Both the position numbers and the translations under genes were made by a program. Below, one piece after another: positions 2,096-10,952 of a stretch of DNA of 64,000 bases; positions within the stretch are counted from its first letter, which is position 1; each line of letters opens with the position of its first letter. This DNA comes from Methanosphaera sp. (lineage in GTDB: Archaea > Methanobacteriota > Methanobacteria > Methanobacteriales > Methanobacteriaceae), in assembly GCF_016282985.1 (NCBI RefSeq), contig NZ_JAEELZ010000114.1, positions 1-64,000 on the forward strand, in the 5' to 3' direction. The notes beneath the pieces are model-generated. The model saw only the letters and a list, made by a program, of their open reading frames with translations, was not told the DNA's origin and did not search any database.

Positions 2096-3178
2096 ATGAT
2101 TGGCCAAATGGATGTATTAATCTTTATAATAACGATTGTGGTTACTGCATTATTTACTGCAGTAGTTAGACGAGAATTGTTATTGGCAGATATTAGAGAT
2201 AATCCTATTGTATCAGAACATAGGCAAAAAAGTGGAACACCAACGATGGGTGGTTTTGGAATATTAATTGGTGTTGCATTAATGGCTTTGGTAACGTTTA
2301 CCTGGAATGCTGTCAGTTATTTGCATATAATGGTAATTATGATGTTTGTTGCCGGTATTTTTGGTATGTTTGATGATTTACTGGGATTTAAAGTTAAAGA
2401 ATATCAAAAAGTTGTAAGAAACAATGGTGATGAACCAGTTAAAATAGGATTGTTATCTTTACAACCTGGTGAAGAAGCTAGAGTTGCTTCACCTCAAGCT
2501 AAAAAAGATTATGCAAAAATTGTAGAAAAGGATCATAAATTGGAATTAATTGATGAAATCCCTATTAAAACAGAAACTTCTGAAACATATAAATTATTTA
2601 CTCAATTTATATTAGCATGTTTCTTGATTGTTCCTGGAGTTTTATCAACTAATATTAGTGGTTTTGAAATTGGTATTTTGATGATTCCTTTAGCAATTTT
2701 AGCAATTATTGGTTCAATTAATGCAGTTAATCTAATAGATGGTATGGATGGTTTAGCAGCAGGAATTATTGCAATTGCTTCTGTAGCATCAGCACTTTAT
2801 TGTGGTGCAATAACGGGTTCCGTTGCATCATTACCATTTGTGGTACTTGCTGGGGCATGTGTTGGATTTTTAGTTTTAAATCATTATCCTGCAAAAATAT
2901 TTATGGGGGATACAGGATCTTATGCATTAGGTACAGGTTATATGGTGGCAGCATTATTAGGAAATTCTTTAATTTTCTCAATTATTGCGTTAGCAGTTCC
3001 TATCATTTCAGTAATAATTAGTTTATTGCATAGGGCACATATAATTACATTACCTGTCGAACCGTTACATCATACATTAAATTATCATGGAATGTCAGAA
3101 CAAAAAATCATATTGTTATATTGGGGCGTTACATTAGTTGTTTCAATAATCGCTTTATTATTATTTGGAATAATTTGA
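2096..3178 (+). CDS. MraY-like phospho-sugar transferase (glycosyltransferase family 4), pseudomurein type
   Basis: This 360-residue polytopic membrane protein belongs to the MraY/WecA family, which moves a phospho-sugar from a UDP carrier to a polyprenyl phosphate. Signature motifs are PTMGGFG (about 49-55), FDDLLGF (about 93), NAVNLIDGMDGLAAG and FMGDTGS. The late motif reads EPLHHTLNYHG where bacterial MraY has a histidine cluster. A charged soluble stretch of about 65 residues separates FDDLLGF from the next membrane segment, longer than in typical MraY. Three Mur-type ligases follow, so the natural role is lipid-linked pseudomurein precursor synthesis (inference). Start: ATG with a GGGGG ribosome-binding site. 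Confidence 0.85.
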   Translation: MIGQMDVLIFIITIVVTALFTAVVRRELLLADIRDNPIVSEHRQKSGTPTMGGFGILIGVALMALVTFTWNAVSYLHIMVIMMFVAGIFGMFDDLLGFKVKEYQKVVRNNGDEPVKIGLLSLQPGEEARVASPQAKKDYAKIVEKDHKLELIDEIPIKTETSETYKLFTQFILACFLIVPGVLSTNISGFEIGILMIPLAILAIIGSINAVNLIDGMDGLAAGIIAIASVASALYCGAITGSVASLPFVVLAGACVGFLVLNHYPAKIFMGDTGSYALGTGYMVAALLGNSLIFSIIALAVPIISVIISLLHRAHIITLPVEPLHHTLNYHGMSEQKIILLYWGVTLVVSIIALLLFGII

Positions 3179-3199
3179 TTTAATTATTGAGGAAATAAA

Positions 3200-4663
3200 A
3201 TGAGTAATATCAACACATTGGATTTGTCAAAAAAGGTTGAAGGAAAGTTATATGGTTCAAATATCGAATTAAAGGGTAATTTTACTTTTCTTAACAAAGC
3301 ATCTAAAAATGATATTGTTATAAGACATTGGATTAATGAAAAAGGTATTCAAATTGCCCATGATAAGGGAATATCTTGTTTAATTACACAAAATCCGCAA
3401 GGAAATTCGATAGATGTTGCAAAAGAATTGAATTTGCCATTAATAGTTACGGATCATATTGAATATGCAACTGCTTTTGCATTAAACACTTCCGTCAATA
3501 AATATGCTAAAGATGCATTTAAGATGTCTGTAACAGGTACGAATGGTAAATCCACTACAACTCATCTTCTTTTTACTATTTTTTCAGATTTGGGATTTAA
3601 TACATATACAAATACTGATGCGGAATCTGAGGGGAATACTTTAATAGATCCAAGGGTATCTGATGAACTAACTGAATTTTATAATAATAATGGGGATATT
3701 GAAATAATTGCTTTAGAAGTCTCTGAAGTCCAAGGATGGGATGATAAATTAATGAAAAATCATTCTTGTCAAATGATTAATGCATTAGGTGCTGATGTAG
3801 CAGTAATTACTAATGCTTCTTTTGATCATATGAATTTAGTAGAATCCTTTGATGAATTATTATATGAAATTGGAGGGGCTGCTAGGGCTTTAACAAAACA
3901 AAATAAAGATACATTACTTGTTTTGAATAATGAAGATCAAAATATTAAAAAAATGTCAGAAATTGTTGAAAATAATTCAAATGTAAAAGTAATGTACTTT
4001 GGAGATTACGATTCTTCAAATTTATTGGATATTTCTTATAAAGAAAATGTTGGAATATTCTCTAAAGATAAATTGTATATTAAATATGATGATTTACCGT
4101 TTACTTCTTATCATTTTATTCAGGATATTATGGCCGCAATAGCAGTTTGCGAATATAAAGAATTAAATAAATATGATGTAATTTCTTCTTTAAAAAATTA
4201 TAAACCATTGGCAAGACGATTCATAAAACTTAGAGAAAATCCGGTTATTATAGATGATTTTGCACATAATCCTTCAGGAATTCATTTAACGATTGAAAAT
4301 GGCGCTAAATTGGGAGAACATCTTTATGTTATTGATGCTATTCGTGGAAGTCGGGGGGATGATATTAATGAGGAAATAGCCGAATCTCTTGTTGAAGTAT
4401 TGGCTAACCGTGAAAATTATTCATTAATATTAACAACCAGTACTGATGTAGTAAATCATCTTAATACAGTAACTGATTCTGAATTAAGAGTATTTACCAA
4501 TGTTTTAAAAGAAAATTCTATTTCATATGAATTATATGATACATTAGAAGAATCATTAATCTCAACATTTAATCATGCAAATGAATCCGATGTCATATTA
4601 TTGTTGGGTGCACAAGGTATGGATCCTGCAAGAAATCTATTAGAACAAAATGATATAATTTAA
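3200..4663 (+). CDS. Mur ligase family protein, probable pseudomurein peptide ligase (MurE/MurC-like)
   Basis: This 487-residue ATP-dependent amide ligase has the Mur layout: an N-terminal substrate domain, a central ATPase domain with VTGTNGKSTTTHLL (about 110-123), and a C-terminal domain with ARRFIKLRENPVIIDDFAHN. Mur ligases add amino acids to a nucleotide- or lipid-linked carrier by acyl-phosphate chemistry. In Methanobacteriales, homologues build the pseudomurein peptide. It starts 21 bases after the mraY-like stop behind GAGGAAAT, so the two are probably cotranscribed. The amino acid it adds cannot be read from sequence. Confidence 0.85.
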   Translation: MSNINTLDLSKKVEGKLYGSNIELKGNFTFLNKASKNDIVIRHWINEKGIQIAHDKGISCLITQNPQGNSIDVAKELNLPLIVTDHIEYATAFALNTSVNKYAKDAFKMSVTGTNGKSTTTHLLFTIFSDLGFNTYTNTDAESEGNTLIDPRVSDELTEFYNNNGDIEIIALEVSEVQGWDDKLMKNHSCQMINALGADVAVITNASFDHMNLVESFDELLYEIGGAARALTKQNKDTLLVLNNEDQNIKKMSEIVENNSNVKVMYFGDYDSSNLLDISYKENVGIFSKDKLYIKYDDLPFTSYHFIQDIMAAIAVCEYKELNKYDVISSLKNYKPLARRFIKLRENPVIIDDFAHNPSGIHLTIENGAKLGEHLYVIDAIRGSRGDDINEEIAESLVEVLANRENYSLILTTSTDVVNHLNTVTDSELRVFTNVLKENSISYELYDTLEESLISTFNHANESDVILLLGAQGMDPARNLLEQNDII

Positions 4664-4871
4664 CCGCCTTATTTATTTTTATTTTTCTTTAATTTTAACA
4701 AAACAAAATAATATTAGAAATATTTCTTATTCTTTCTATATTTTCTGTTAAACACTATTTTTAAGTAATAATTACAGTTAGAAAAATATATTATTTATAA
4801 AAAAAAGATATGTAACTAAGATATTATATATTGATACTTAATAAATTTTTTGATAAAATAAGGAGTTGTTT

Positions 4872-6317
4872 TTGTTGAAATTTAAAAATTGTATTGTGAT
4901 AGGTGCCGGAAATGCGGGACGACCTGTTGCTAGATTATTAAATCATCAGGGTGTTGATGTAACAATAGCCGATTCAAAAAAATATGAAGAATTTACTGAA
5001 ATACGTCAGGATATGTTGGATGTTCTTAAAAGCGAAGGTGTTAAATTAAATTTGGGTGTTGATAATCCTAATATTTCTGAATATGAAGCAATATATCTTG
5101 CTCCAACAATACCTGAAACAGCACCAATTTATGAACAAATTAAAGAAAATGATATTACAATTGTCACCAGTAAAACAATAAGTGATTTGATTAACACTAT
5201 TATCGATATGGATAAAATAGGTATAACTGGGTCATATGGTAAAACTACCACAACAACTATGATAACACATATTTTCAAAAAAGCAGGGTATAAAGTATAC
5301 CAATGTTCGTCTATGAAATGGAATTTGGTAAGTGAAGCAATAGTTGATGATATTGTTCGAGGTGAATATAAAGGTGCAGATTTAGCAATATTAGAATTAC
5401 CTCATGGAACTTTAGGTTTATTAAGTGATGTACAATTGAAAATGGGTGTTATTACAAATCTTCATCAAGAACATTTAAGTGAATTCGATGGTTCAATGCA
5501 AAGATATATAGATAGAAAATCTTTGATTTTAGATATGTGTGATAAGTTAGTTGCAAATATTCAATGTGCTGATTTACTAACATACAAAAGAGAAGATACT
5601 ATTTACTTTGATTTTGAAAATAATAATAAGGATGCTGACAAAAACAAATACTCTCCTAAATATTTAGCTTCATATGATAAAGGTAATTATATTTTCAAAG
5701 TAGTTGGTGAAAATCCTTTTGAAAAAACAGATATAAATATTGATACTGTTGCTTCTTATAATTATGCAAATTTAACAGCAGCTATCTCTGTATGTTTGGA
5801 ATATGGAATTTCATGGGATATTATAAAAGAAGGATTAGCTTTATTCACTGGAGTAAGTGGAAGAATGGAACATTTAGGTACTTTTAATGGTGTTGAAGCT
5901 TACTTTGATTCCTCTTGTTCTGAATTATCTATTAGACAGGCTTTAGATTTTATTAAAGATGAAAATATAATTGTTGTATTTGGTTGTGTTGATTCAACAA
6001 CTATCCGAGATAATACTGAAAGTGGTAGGACTGTTGGAGATTATGCAAATATGGTTATTGCAACAGGATTTGTTGAAATAACTGGTGAATTACATATGGA
6101 TTCTGCATTAGGTCTTTTAAATGCTATTGAAAATGATGATGTAATAAAATTAGCAGTTTGTACTGTTGATGAAGCAGCTGAATTGGCAATGAAATATGCT
6201 AAACCTGGTGATTACATAGTTCATTTAGGTATCGGAGGAACTACTTCTTATAATGAAGTTAAAGAAAAATTAATCAACGGATTAAATGAGGGTTGTAAAC
6301 GATATGCAAATAACTGA
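4872..6317 (+). CDS. Mur ligase family protein, probable pseudomurein peptide ligase (MurD/MurC-like)
   Basis: The protein opens with a dinucleotide-fold pattern (NCIVIGAGNAGRPVARLL) typical of MurC/MurD-like N-domains. It then has the ATP-binding loop ITGSYGKTTTTTMITHIF and a C-terminal domain with SGRMEHLGTFNGVEAYFDSS. The usual HNP after the C-domain aspartate is replaced here (FDSSCSE), which may change substrate handling. AGGAG at 4861-4865 favours a TTG start at 4872 or 4875. About 200 bases of AT-rich DNA separate it from the preceding ligase, so it may have its own promoter. Substrate unknown. Confidence 0.82.
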   Translation: MLKFKNCIVIGAGNAGRPVARLLNHQGVDVTIADSKKYEEFTEIRQDMLDVLKSEGVKLNLGVDNPNISEYEAIYLAPTIPETAPIYEQIKENDITIVTSKTISDLINTIIDMDKIGITGSYGKTTTTTMITHIFKKAGYKVYQCSSMKWNLVSEAIVDDIVRGEYKGADLAILELPHGTLGLLSDVQLKMGVITNLHQEHLSEFDGSMQRYIDRKSLILDMCDKLVANIQCADLLTYKREDTIYFDFENNNKDADKNKYSPKYLASYDKGNYIFKVVGENPFEKTDINIDTVASYNYANLTAAISVCLEYGISWDIIKEGLALFTGVSGRMEHLGTFNGVEAYFDSSCSELSIRQALDFIKDENIIVVFGCVDSTTIRDNTESGRTVGDYANMVIATGFVEITGELHMDSALGLLNAIENDDVIKLAVCTVDEAAELAMKYAKPGDYIVHLGIGGTTSYNEVKEKLINGLNEGCKRYANN

Positions 6318-7854
6318 TATTAAGGAAAATTCTGTATTTGGCGTTATTGGTGTTTGTGGAGTTAATGGTAATTTAATTGCCAGAATTTTAATGGATCATG
6401 GATATAAAGTTCAAGCTACTGATATGGTGGATAAAGATAATTGTCGTTTTGGTAGTTCATTAAATGATTATCCAAATATGGAAATTTATTATGGTGAAAT
6501 GCCTGAAGATTTTATTTCTTCATCAGACTATATAATTATGCCAACACAGTTAATAGAATCAAAATCTAATTTATTCAATAAAGTTCAAGAATTAGGTGTT
6601 CCAATATTAACTGTTGAAGATATTTTTAAATTATTTGAACCAGCACATCCAGTAATTTGTATTACTGGTACAAATGGAAAAACAACTACTACAACTTTAT
6701 TAAAACATTTGGCTTCGGATAATGGATTAAAACCATGTGAACATAATTTAGCAAATATGCAAGGTAATCTTGCAGATATTCCTCCGTTACAGGCACGTTT
6801 AAATGGTGATTTAAGCATTTTAGAAACAGGAACATTTGGTTTTGAAGGAAGTTTAAACAGATTAATCACAAATTGTAAAGCAGATGTTGGTTTAATAACT
6901 AATATTACAGAAGATCATCTTACAAATAGTCATGACTTTTTAAATTATGCAAAAGTCAAAGGTGAATTTGTAGAATTACTTAAAAATAAGACTCTTATTG
7001 TAAATAGTGATGATCCAACAATCATGTCATTACTTAAAGAATTAAATTATGTTGGAAATTTAATAACTTTTGGTATAGATGCTAAATCATTTAGAAAATC
7101 AGTCAAACAGTGTTTTTGTGGTAATGATGTAGAAGTTTGTGAGTTTATAGCAGGCGTTGGTAAATATAATTGTGTTTGCGGAGTATCTTATTCACAACCT
7201 GATTATCTTGCAACTAATATTAATGATGAACATGATCAGTTTACTTTAGTTTGTAAAGATGGAAAATTTGATTTTAAACTTAAACTTAAAGGATTACATA
7301 ATATTTATAATTCTCTTGGTGCAATTATTGTTGCTAACCAAGTCTTGGGAATGTCATTTGATGATATTAAAAAATCCCTCTTAAAATTCGGTGGCGTAAA
7401 TGGTAGAATGCAAAATATTGGGGTTATTGGTGATAAAGAGATAATGATTGATTATGCACATAATCCTGCAGGTATTACTACAGTTTTAAAAGAATTAAAA
7501 AATATATATGGAATTATTGTCAATGTTATTACAACTTCTTCTGAATCGGGTATGGTTGGAGATATGGAAATATTGAATTGTTCAGCAGATTATTCCGATT
7601 ATATAGTTCCTGCTTCATATAATGCTTATTTATGTGCTAAAGAAGCATTGGAAAAAGGGTTATTTGTTGATAAAATAATATTACCTGAAAATATGCCTAC
7701 TGATGAAAAACAAGGTACTTTGGGAGCTACCGTTGAACAAGTATTATCGGGATTTAATAAATCTTTAGAAATTGATGCTGATTTAATAATATGTACTGGT
7801 GAAGCAGCCTTCAAATATAAAGATATTTTAATTGAAAAATATGATTTGGAGTAA
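6304..7854 (+). CDS. Mur ligase family protein with MurT-like cysteine insert, probable pseudomurein ligase
   Basis: This 516-residue Mur ligase has a Rossmann-like N-domain, the ATP loop ITGTNGKTTTTTLLKHLA, and a C-domain with NGRMQNIG and IDYAHNPAG. A cysteine-rich insert lies in the central domain (C270, C272, C279, C290, C292). Its position and spacing recall the zinc ribbon of bacterial MurT, the ligase-like subunit that works with the glutaminase GatD, though the first pair here is CxC. The ATG at 6304 follows GAGGG at a suitable distance and overlaps the previous gene by 14 bases, so the two are tightly coupled. No GatD-like gene is adjacent. The substrate is unknown. Confidence 0.82.
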   Translation: MQITDIKENSVFGVIGVCGVNGNLIARILMDHGYKVQATDMVDKDNCRFGSSLNDYPNMEIYYGEMPEDFISSSDYIIMPTQLIESKSNLFNKVQELGVPILTVEDIFKLFEPAHPVICITGTNGKTTTTTLLKHLASDNGLKPCEHNLANMQGNLADIPPLQARLNGDLSILETGTFGFEGSLNRLITNCKADVGLITNITEDHLTNSHDFLNYAKVKGEFVELLKNKTLIVNSDDPTIMSLLKELNYVGNLITFGIDAKSFRKSVKQCFCGNDVEVCEFIAGVGKYNCVCGVSYSQPDYLATNINDEHDQFTLVCKDGKFDFKLKLKGLHNIYNSLGAIIVANQVLGMSFDDIKKSLLKFGGVNGRMQNIGVIGDKEIMIDYAHNPAGITTVLKELKNIYGIIVNVITTSSESGMVGDMEILNCSADYSDYIVPASYNAYLCAKEALEKGLFVDKIILPENMPTDEKQGTLGATVEQVLSGFNKSLEIDADLIICTGEAAFKYKDILIEKYDLE

Positions 7855-7908: not shown

Positions 7909-8045
7909 AAATTTTGCATTATCTACTTATAAAATAAAAAATATAATTATTATTTAATAATTATCTACTATAAACAAAGTGTAGTTAAATTAAAAAATTA
8001 TACAAAAATTAGTTTTTTAATAATGCTTTTAATAGGGGTGAAATA

Positions 8046-8519
8046 TTGTTTATAAAAGTTAGGAGAGATACTTTAATCATTTTGATTTTAGCATTTATTT
8101 TAATTTTATCCGGTCGTGCAATGACCTATATTGCATTTGCATCATCTGATAGTGTGGAAGATGGTGTTCCTATAGCAGGGGTAATGGTTAAAGGTAATGA
8201 TATAGTACCTCTCTCTTCAATTAAATCAAATGTGGCAGCAGCTGGATTTAGGGATGGTAGTTATATAAAAGGGAATACTTTAATTACTTCTCAACGACAG
8301 TTATTGCTGTCAGATGCAATTAAAAATGCGGAACAATTAGTAAAAAGATCAACAATTCCTGGAACATCGATTGCTCCGATAAATGTTGTTGATATTCAAG
8401 TAGATTCAAATACTGGTAATGTAGTAGTAAATGTTGTTGAAGATTTTTCCGTAATAAAAGTTAATAATGTTAACAATGCGACAGCATCTCATACAGCTGC
8501 CGCTAATACAGAAACATAA
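8046..8519 (+). CDS. Membrane-anchored extracytoplasmic protein with a POTRA-like domain
   Basis: I do not recognise this 157-residue protein by name. A positively charged start (KVRR) precedes a hydrophobic helix at about 9-23, so the rest should lie outside the cell, either anchored or after signal cleavage near AFA. Residues 43-133 follow a POTRA-like pattern: IAGVMVKGNDIV, then helices, then INVVDIQVDSNTGNVVVNVVED. One TM plus one POTRA recalls FtsQ/DivIB, but the fold call is mine. The tail is rich in Ala, Thr and Asn. The TTG start follows GGGGTG. It is 11 bases before another exported protein, and the pseudomurein ligases lie upstream. Confidence 0.7.
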   Translation: MFIKVRRDTLIILILAFILILSGRAMTYIAFASSDSVEDGVPIAGVMVKGNDIVPLSSIKSNVAAAGFRDGSYIKGNTLITSQRQLLLSDAIKNAEQLVKRSTIPGTSIAPINVVDIQVDSNTGNVVVNVVEDFSVIKVNNVNNATASHTAAANTET

Positions 8520-8530
8520 TTGGTGGTAAA

Positions 8531-9796
8531 ATGAATAATCATTCAAAAATTGCAAAAATATCCGTTTTCTTGCTAATTATAATGTTATTCTCTTCAGTAG
8601 CTTCAGCAACAATGAACGTTGCAGTTATTACTGATCCTACAGGAAAAGATCCTAATGGATGTGCTGCAGGAAGTCAATCCTTTGCATCAAATATGTTTCA
8701 ATCAACGTTCATATTTTCTCAAGAACACAAAACAGCTATATTGTCTGGGGGTGAAGGTACATCTGATGTACGTATTGCTGCAATTATCACAGCTTTAACA
8801 CAACTTCAAGCAAACGCTTCACTTCAACAGATAGTAAGTGTTGCACAAAACTTTGAGGGTATACGTCTAATGGCAGTTAATCCTACGGAAGGTATTTCAG
8901 TAGGTGGGGATTTCCAAGTATATGTGGTTACAGTTGACAGTAGTAGCGCAATCAAAATCCAACCAGCAGCTGGTGGTGTAGTTTCTGTACCTGCTGGTAC
9001 AAGAGGTGCAATTATTCACCTTCGTAATTCTGAAGGAAACCCTAAATCTGGAACCGCTGATAGAGTAAGATTACAAACAGCTATGAATATAGGTAAAATG
9101 ATTAGGGATGGATATCCTGCAACAACTATTGTGGCTAAAGCATTTGAGGAAGTTGCAAAAGATTCTGGAGAAAATCACGGTGGGGGTGCAGTGAACCTAG
9201 TTTCTGGTGTTACTACTGGGGATATGTTTACACCTGAACAATTAAATGATGTTGGGTATGAAATGGATAAACCTTACAGTAAAGTAAGTAATACTGGGTG
9301 GAGTATTGGTTTCCCTGAAGCAAATAACTACCAAGTGTCTCCTGTAGATGGAAGTCCATTAACAACAATCTATGCTTATGATGCACTTAAAAATACAATT
9401 ACAGTTACTGGAGATCATCCATCTGTGTCTGTATATGGTTCTGATAAAAGAGGATTGTCTGAAGCAACTGCTGATATAGTGTCTGCATCAGTTACCAGAA
9501 ATGGTTATGATCCTGTTGCAATTACAAGATCAATTAACAGAGCGATTGATAGTGGTACTTTAGTTGGTGTTGAACATATAGATACATCTGATTTAAATGT
9601 TAAAGAAAATATTAGGGCAGTAGGGGTATATTTCACACCTGCAGCTAATGGAAGAACATCACCCGCATGGAATTTACCTATAAATTCACAAATATTTGAT
9701 GTATTAGGAAATGTACAAACAATTATAGGAATATTGTTAATATTATTAGCATTATTTAGAAGTACTTTGATTAAATCATTCTTTAGAAGACGATAA
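8531..9796 (+). CDS. Exported protein with signal peptide and C-terminal membrane anchor, function unknown
   Basis: This 421-residue protein has a classical signal sequence (hydrophobic core about 9-25, probable cleavage after VASA). It ends in one transmembrane helix (about 396-411) followed by the basic tail KSFFRRR, so it is a surface protein anchored at its C-terminus. Three helical segments look distantly alike (near residues 75-115, 175-220 and 310-345), with patterns such as IRDGYPATTIVAKAFEEV and TRNGYDPVAITRSINRAI. No catalytic motif is evident. It is translated from ATG 11 bases after the POTRA-like gene and is probably in the same operon. I cannot assign a function. Confidence 0.8.
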   Translation: MNNHSKIAKISVFLLIIMLFSSVASATMNVAVITDPTGKDPNGCAAGSQSFASNMFQSTFIFSQEHKTAILSGGEGTSDVRIAAIITALTQLQANASLQQIVSVAQNFEGIRLMAVNPTEGISVGGDFQVYVVTVDSSSAIKIQPAAGGVVSVPAGTRGAIIHLRNSEGNPKSGTADRVRLQTAMNIGKMIRDGYPATTIVAKAFEEVAKDSGENHGGGAVNLVSGVTTGDMFTPEQLNDVGYEMDKPYSKVSNTGWSIGFPEANNYQVSPVDGSPLTTIYAYDALKNTITVTGDHPSVSVYGSDKRGLSEATADIVSASVTRNGYDPVAITRSINRAIDSGTLVGVEHIDTSDLNVKENIRAVGVYFTPAANGRTSPAWNLPINSQIFDVLGNVQTIIGILLILLALFRSTLIKSFFRRR

Positions 9797-10212: not shown

Positions 10213-10722
10213 TTATTTTCTTTTTATTCTAGCTATATCTCCAATTGTTGCTTCTTTAAACCGTCTAACATCTTGGAATTCTCTTTCATCACTATCCGTT
10301 TTTTCTATTATTGATATGTTGAGAATTTTTTCAAGTTTTTTAGCTATTTTTTCATCTGGAACCATTTTTCCATTTTCAATTTTATGGATAACTGATTCTC
10401 TTTCGTACATTTGTTCTCCAAGTTGTTTTTGTGTCAGACCTTTTATTTCACGTTTTTGTCTAATAATTTTTGCATAGTCTTCTACTAATTCATATTCTTC
10501 TTCTTTTGTTTTTCTTGAATATGCTTGATTTTTCGGTCTGTTGTTGTAATTGTTACGGTTATTATTATTTTTTCCTTTTGGTGTTCGTTTGTTTGTTGGT
10601 TGTGGTTTACTTTGAACTTTACCATATCGAGAACATTCTTTACAAGTAACCATTATGGAATTATCAATTTTAGTTTTATAAGGTTCTCCTTTAATTTCGC
10701 TTCCACATATTTCACAGTTCAT
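10213..10722 (-). CDS. Archaeal multiprotein bridging factor aMBF1
   Basis: The N-terminus is a zinc ribbon with CEIC and CKEC pairs. A basic Asn/Lys/Arg-rich linker follows (about 45-75), then a helix-turn-helix of the Cro/C1 type (IIRQKREIKGLTQKQLGEQM). This is the archaeal MBF1 layout. In eukaryotes MBF1 bridges activators and TBP; archaeal aMBF1 has been linked to ribosomes and translation. I chose the ATG at 10722, giving MNCEICG as in most homologues; a GTG three codons upstream is possible. Convergent with the DUF356-like gene. Confidence 0.88.
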   Translation of the reverse strand: MNCEICGSEIKGEPYKTKIDNSIMVTCKECSRYGKVQSKPQPTNKRTPKGKNNNNRNNYNNRPKNQAYSRKTKEEEYELVEDYAKIIRQKREIKGLTQKQLGEQMYERESVIHKIENGKMVPDEKIAKKLEKILNISIIEKTDSDEREFQDVRRFKEATIGDIARIKRK

Positions 10723-10952
10723 TTTATTCACTTAATTGATTTATTATATAATATTCTGTTTTTTAGTTAAAATATCTTTTTTGTATATAAAATTTCAAAT
10801 TCATTTATTTGATACATTTTTTACAAATAATTTAATAATGATGAATTCTTAAACTATTAATGTAGGAATAATTATATTAAAAAAACAAAAAGTTAGAAAA
10901 TTTGTTAATCTGATTTAAAGTTTAAAGATTCAATTTAAAAGGAGGGTACTTG

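Follow-up and report, generated by a model that had tools for sequence, protein, structure and literature searches.

What kind of protein is encoded by the short open reading frame (ORF) that follows the pseudomurein genes of a Methanosphaera species, and does it belong to the cell wall machinery? The window, that is, the whole stretch of DNA that we analysed, comprises 64,000 nucleotides of one contig. From the layout of the predicted protein and the genes beside it, a first-pass annotation had proposed a POTRA domain, a resemblance to FtsQ/DivIB and a wall-linked role. We asked how much of this proposal holds, and which other proteins the gene is tied to.

The ORF is a genuine gene. Its coordinates are as first recorded (Table 1 also gives its TTG start, strand and length), and its product matches the NCBIfam family NF053641 ("Mfer763") with 221 bits against a curated cut-off of 170, over model positions 1-137 of 137. 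Orthologues across the sampled genomes are 40-94% identical to the window protein, and many have GGTGA-type sites 5' of the start. The family is catalogued without a function or fold, and Mfer763 and its neighbour Mfer764 are already known as genes for hypothetical proteins (NCBIfam; PMC11915815). Our alignment of 48 Mfer763 orthologues reaches as far as Methanopyrus-like sequences, which are about 41% identical.

Table 1. Positions in the window of Mfer763, its proposed partner and the adjoining pseudomurein genes
Feature	Position	Strand	Basis
Archaeal MraY (lipid-linked precursor synthesis)	2096..3178	+	NF053644, 505 bits
pMurE peptide ligase	3200..4663	+	NF053648, 647 bits
pMurD1 peptide ligase	4866..6317	+	NF053646, 618 bits
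pMurC peptide ligase	6286..7854	+	NF053645, 717 bits
Shine-Dalgarno-like AGGGGTGA before the Mfer763 TTG start	8034..8041	+	Sequence; GGTGA-type sites in many orthologues
Mfer763-family gene (TM + predicted POTRA), TTG start, 157 aa	8046..8519	+	NF053641, 48-sequence alignment, AlphaFold2 model
Mfer763 predicted N-terminal membrane helix, residues 7-33	8064..8144	+	AlphaFold2, hydropathy, conservation
Mfer763 predicted extracellular POTRA domain, residues 42-134 (b1-a1-hairpin-a2-b2-b3)	8169..8447	+	AlphaFold2, Foldseek, profile vs PDB
Mfer763 variable, low-confidence C-terminal tail, residues 135-157, without the FtsQ beta domain	8448..8516	+	pLDDT, orthologue tail lengths
Mfer764-family gene (signal peptide, ectodomain, C-terminal TM), 421 aa	8531..9796	+	NF053642, 631 bits; alignment; AlphaFold2
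Mfer764 predicted signal peptide, residues 1-26, A-x-A type cleavage site before T27	8531..8608	+	Orthologue conservation
Codon of invariant Mfer764 Thr27, proposed N-terminal nucleophile of an Ntn-like fold	8609..8611	+	First strand 28-33; Foldseek
Mfer764 predicted C-terminal membrane helix, residues 386-420	9686..9790	+	AlphaFold2; 61% mean pairwise identity over 388-412

As the first-pass annotation described, Mfer763 begins with a short basic N-terminus (K4, R6 and R7) that leads into a single hydrophobic segment (Kyte-Doolittle maximum 2.25). Residues that are invariant among the 48 orthologues include G23, R24, Y28, G50, G124, V126, V130, E132 and D133. The tail after the POTRA domain ranges from 4 to 48 amino acids among orthologues, and in the AlphaFold2 model its pLDDT is about 50-74.

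The AlphaFold2 model of Mfer763, made from the 48-orthologue alignment, has a mean pLDDT of 83, rising to about 90 across the domain core. Its predicted elements are a helix (7-33), a strand (45-49), two further helices (56-66 and 88-100) and two strands (112-119 and 125-132). This reproduces the strand-helix-helix-strand-strand order that had been read from the letters, with a small beta hairpin (72-87) added to the POTRA order between the two domain helices; the VKGN and GNVVVNVVED ends quoted earlier lie on the first and last strands, together with invariant residues. When the model is compared with the PDB by Foldseek, the first-ranked structure is FtsQ of an FtsB-FtsL-FtsQ complex (8hhf_Q; E 3.7e-3, probability 1.00), and nearly all others among the top 50 are POTRA structures of BamA, Omp85, TamA and SAM50. 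The Foldseek E-values never come down to 0.001, which is modest and usual for a small domain, and whole-chain TM-scores are below 0.4, partly because the comparison takes in the membrane helix and tail as well.

Sequence profiles provide a separate, independent line of evidence. Among 177,635 PDB sequences, the Mfer763 profile has 38 matches up to E = 10, all to BamA (best 3.5e-5, in a POTRA domain) and none to FtsQ. With hhalign, E. coli BamA aligns at POTRA2 (E 0.0012), as against E 0.53 for FtsA, which served as a control, and E. coli FtsQ gives no signal (E 0.67), a weak test in that it uses a single sequence. The Pfam POTRA models stay below cut-off: PF07244 is found in four of the 48 members (best E 0.029), and a PF08478 search of the window's genome and five relatives gave no match at Mfer763 and only sub-threshold ones elsewhere. 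With sequence profile and predicted structure in agreement, assignment of Mfer763 to the POTRA fold class is well supported, and the check for an unrelated fold that had been suggested along with the original guess came out on the side of POTRA. As to the nearest POTRA, structure points to FtsQ first, and sequence to POTRA2 of BamA.

The hydrophobic segment of Mfer763 could be a membrane anchor or a signal peptide that is removed. Conservation in the protein is highest over residues 9-29, with 73% mean pairwise identity versus 63% for the POTRA domain, whereas the cleaved-type signal peptide of Mfer764 has 31% versus 62% for its own ectodomain. From this contrast in conservation, we consider an anchor clearly the more probable of the two. 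The alternative is that Mfer763 is secreted, with a Sec signal peptide cleaved at A30-x-A32|S33, leaving the POTRA domain outside the cell as a soluble factor that binds the wall or acts as a chaperone. We regard this as a minority possibility, albeit one to be taken seriously, because a small-x-A/S motif occupies residues 30-32, just before residue 33, in all 48 orthologues, and takes the form AxA|S in 36 of them. A role as a signal peptide alone sits poorly with the invariant G23, R24 and Y28 in this most conserved part of the protein, and with AlphaFold2, which gives one unbroken helix over residues 7-33.

Published predictions also touch on this question. In one single-contig Methanothermobacter-like genome (G149, locus L089, 7608-8856), an apparent frameshift, whether real or due to a sequencing error, divides Mfer764 in two. 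We take this genome to be that of M. thermautotrophicus delta H. An independent pangenomic study describes two hypothetical proteins of cluster A, one with a Sec signal peptide and no TM helix and the other with one TM helix, and it calls OG0001472 a pseudogene in M. thermautotrophicus delta H (PMC11915815). The order in which the proteins are listed there, the pseudogene remark and the split Mfer764 gene of G149 together suggest that Mfer763 is OG0001162 and Mfer764 is OG0001472. On this tentative mapping, the protein with a Sec signal peptide and no TM helix may be Mfer763, as secretion would predict.

Mfer763 is restricted to archaea with pseudomurein genes. The family was detected in 139 of 152 genomes of the pseudomurein phylum, covering all 20 genera searched, and outside the phylum in four Methanopyrus-like genomes of a single family (f12), three of which were inspected and have MraY, pMurE and pMurC near Mfer763. 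At a match threshold of 1e-5, it is absent from all 240 other archaeal genomes and all 14 controls. Mfer764 is equally restricted among the 200 genomes searched for it, and the two hypothetical proteins of this cluster are given as exclusive to pseudomurein archaea in the pangenomic study (PMC11915815). The first-pass annotation had called for a check of whether archaea without pseudomurein possess the gene equally; these searches show it to be confined to genomes with the pseudomurein cluster. The 13 genomes of the phylum in which Mfer763 was not found are mostly fragmented drafts. Since in several of them a contig begins near archaeal MraY, on the side where Mfer763 is expected, gaps in assembly are a likelier explanation than loss, although not necessarily in every genome.

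Two weak matches to the Mfer763 model were set aside. One (G196; E 8e-5), in a non-pseudomurein archaeon, was judged to be due to chance: its ORF encodes two hydrophobic stretches, and the C-terminal domain is of another kind, by eye like a bacterial PH domain. The other (G079) lies inside an 1818-aa frame with no cluster gene near and was rejected. In addition, one draft genome (G092) has two Mfer763 copies (C63:70-480 and C7:6905-7234), both near contig ends, and is probably a mixed assembly.

The pseudomurein neighbours named at first reading are borne out, in that the archaeal MraY, pMurE, pMurD1 and pMurC genes at 2096-7854 all score above their curated cut-offs. A mur gene does adjoin Mfer763, but which one varies with lineage: in most it is pMurE, and in a few lineages, the window's genus among them, it is pMurC, with pMurD1 and pMurC lying between pMurE and Mfer763. 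In the deepest lineages, Mfer763 overlaps pMurE or is within 2 nucleotides of it. On the other side, Mfer764 lies directly 3' of Mfer763 on the same strand in each of 22 fetched neighbourhoods as well as in the window, where it starts 11 bases after Mfer763 and is followed by a DUF356 gene. The gap between the pair, computed for relatives with start codons of our choosing, is -19 to +36 nucleotides in nearly all loci, and larger only in L073, L106 and L089, the last of which has the split gene. Because of the pairing in all loci and the contact with pMurE in the deepest lineages, the genomic tie of Mfer763 is tightest to Mfer764 and then to pMurE. Neither ftsZ nor sepF was found in the cluster, in which the neighbours are precursor-synthesis genes and Mfer764.

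Other features flank the cluster. Near the contig start, an IS605 OrfB/TnpB-type transposase gene (314-1618) lies just 5' of MraY; a small ATP-grasp (CPS-like) gene that is found 5' of MraY in relatives was not seen there in the window. The block beyond Mfer764, consisting of genes for DUF356, an MBF1-like protein and the proteasome-activating ATPase, is also kept in many Methanobacteriales loci. In the window, the MBF1-like helix-turn-helix protein is encoded on the minus strand (10213-10731) between the other two.

Mfer764, encoded beside Mfer763 throughout, resembles an enzyme in its predicted fold. AlphaFold2, run on an alignment of 44 orthologues, models it (pLDDT 83) as an alpha-beta-beta-alpha sandwich whose elements, starting at residue 28, follow the order b-b-b-b-a-a-b-b-b-b-a-a-b. 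The best Foldseek match is a circularly permuted taspase-1 (E 8.3e-5, probability 1.00), a structure presumably built to begin at the catalytic threonine, and the list also includes DUF1028, HslV, Anbu, the proteasome and the GlmS glutaminase domain. PP2C phosphatases, which have a similar sandwich, match as well, mostly with lower probability. A26, T27, N29 and D35 are invariant in all 44 orthologues, and the -3 residue relative to A26|T27 is small or aliphatic, and thus of a permitted kind, in all 44. If the signal peptide is cleaved at A26|T27, Thr27 would become an exposed N-terminal nucleophile. Searches by sequence found no Pfam match for Mfer764, only a chance GH95 match for its profile in the PDB and no signal against an archaeal DUF1028 alignment (hhalign, E 0.16). 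Because of this last result, it is the fold on which the Ntn assignment is based, and we describe Mfer764 as having a predicted Ntn-hydrolase-like ectodomain with Thr27 as its putative nucleophile. Most orthologues also have a zinc-ribbon-like CxxCG...CPxDG insert (for example, in L071 and L104), whose cysteines are missing in the window's protein (encoded at about 9280-9370) and in its close relatives.

These observations lead us to propose, with somewhat better than even confidence, that Mfer763 serves pseudomurein assembly as a docking scaffold, a POTRA domain held by a membrane anchor, with Mfer764 as its closest partner. Mfer763 would cross the membrane once, through its anchor helix, with the short basic N-terminus in the cytoplasm and the single POTRA domain outside, and would position Mfer764 where pseudomurein precursors are put together. 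Mfer764 would be exported and held by its C-terminal anchor, and the wall's peptide (acyl-amide) portion would be the probable substrate of its Ntn-hydrolase-like domain. The POTRA domain might hold its partners by edge-strand pairing, by analogy to FtsQ and BamA, while the anchor helix might pack against the membrane helix of Mfer764 or another membrane protein. As a result, the enzyme and the MraY-derived precursors would be brought together.

A bolder version of this scaffold model treats Mfer763 together with Mfer764 as the extracellular half of a pseudomurein synthase of archaea. In it, the POTRA protein would recruit an Ntn-type ectoenzyme whose Thr27, exposed by signal peptidase, would transpeptidate (cross-link) or trim pseudomurein peptides. 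We advance this version tentatively. If it were true, the chemistry would be unrelated to that of bacterial penicillin-binding proteins and would be organised by an FtsQ-like scaffold.

A different possibility, which we consider unlikely, is that Mfer763 is a true FtsQ/DivIB counterpart, a septum-specific divisome scaffold that joins FtsZ-SepF inside the cell to septal pseudomurein synthesis outside. The common layout, the rank of FtsQ among structural matches and the location beside mur ligases, with pMurC directly 5' in a few lineages that include the window's genus, are all consistent with such a role, but the protein lacks the FtsQ beta domain and a PF08478 match, the cluster lacks ftsZ and sepF, and the association with Mfer764 and precursor enzymes suggests general wall synthesis. 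FtsZ-based division is widespread in archaea, far beyond those with pseudomurein (PMC8178401). A septum-only role is less supported because the Mfer763 family is absent from FtsZ-dividing archaea without pseudomurein, and because its neighbours are precursor enzymes. The likeness to FtsQ/DivIB claimed in the first-pass annotation is thus retained as to layout and given up as to family membership, there being neither a beta domain nor a sequence match to PF08478 or E. coli FtsQ. The descriptions "FtsQ-like layout" and "wall-linked" are supported because the predicted fold is POTRA and the distribution is limited to pseudomurein archaea.

It is also improbable that the POTRA domain of Mfer763 serves protein export or folding in the manner of BamA/Omp85, for adhesins or other surface proteins, with its place in a wall cluster being incidental. 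The sequence signal, which is to BamA POTRA domains and not to FtsQ, speaks for such a role. Against it are the lack of a barrel and of an outer membrane, a cluster position conserved all the way from Methanobacteriaceae to Methanopyrus-like genomes, and the absence of the family from other archaea, which secrete proteins too. Finally, small alpha/beta domains can look alike and the Foldseek E-values are modest, but a resemblance to POTRA arising by convergence or as an artefact of structure prediction is very improbable, as the sequence profile and the structure comparison, two different methods, agree in yielding almost nothing but POTRA proteins.

The docking scaffold model bears on the polymerisation and cross-linking of pseudomurein outside the cell, and Mfer763 and Mfer764 become concrete candidates for the extracellular part of wall assembly. 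The pangenomic study names as candidate cross-linker a transglutaminase encoded outside the clusters, and lists the two cluster proteins without known domains (PMC11915815). A literature search, which covered the main texts of mostly open papers, found no experimental work on either protein, and no paper assigning them a POTRA or Ntn-like fold; both fold assignments appear to be new. Mfer763 would represent a scaffold fold of the wall or division type in archaea that have no outer membrane, and bears on the extent to which archaeal and bacterial wall machineries have parts in common beyond Mur ligases.

Compared with the catalogued Mfer763 and Mfer764 families (NF053641 and NF053642), the gene pair and cluster described here are the same, and the POTRA and Ntn-like assignments are added. 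Mfer764 resembles taspase-1/type-2 asparaginases, DUF1028 proteins and HslV in its predicted sandwich, with the first strand beside an N-terminal threonine. It differs from Ntn-hydrolases in its lack of detectable sequence similarity, in having an extra C-terminal domain, a zinc-ribbon-like insert and a TM helix, and in that its threonine would be exposed by signal peptidase rather than by autoproteolysis.

Among proteins with POTRA domains, BamA/Omp85 (PF07244) provides the best sequence-profile match to Mfer763, through POTRA2 of BamA. However, Mfer763 has one such domain instead of several, has no outer-membrane barrel (at 157 aa, it has no strands after the POTRA domain), and comes from a monoderm archaeon. 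The FtsQ beta domain carries the contact with FtsB in bacteria. Relative to FtsQ/DivIB (PF08478 + PF03799), Mfer763 has no C-terminal beta domain and no Pfam match, is little over half as long as FtsQ (157 versus 276 aa), and has neither ftsZ nor ftsA beside it. What it shares with FtsQ/DivIB is a basic N-terminus, a membrane-proximal POTRA domain, which in Mfer763 (42-134) comes directly after the hydrophobic helix, and mur ligase neighbours, and probably also a single uncleaved TM helix. The description that fits it best is that of a minimal TM-POTRA protein.
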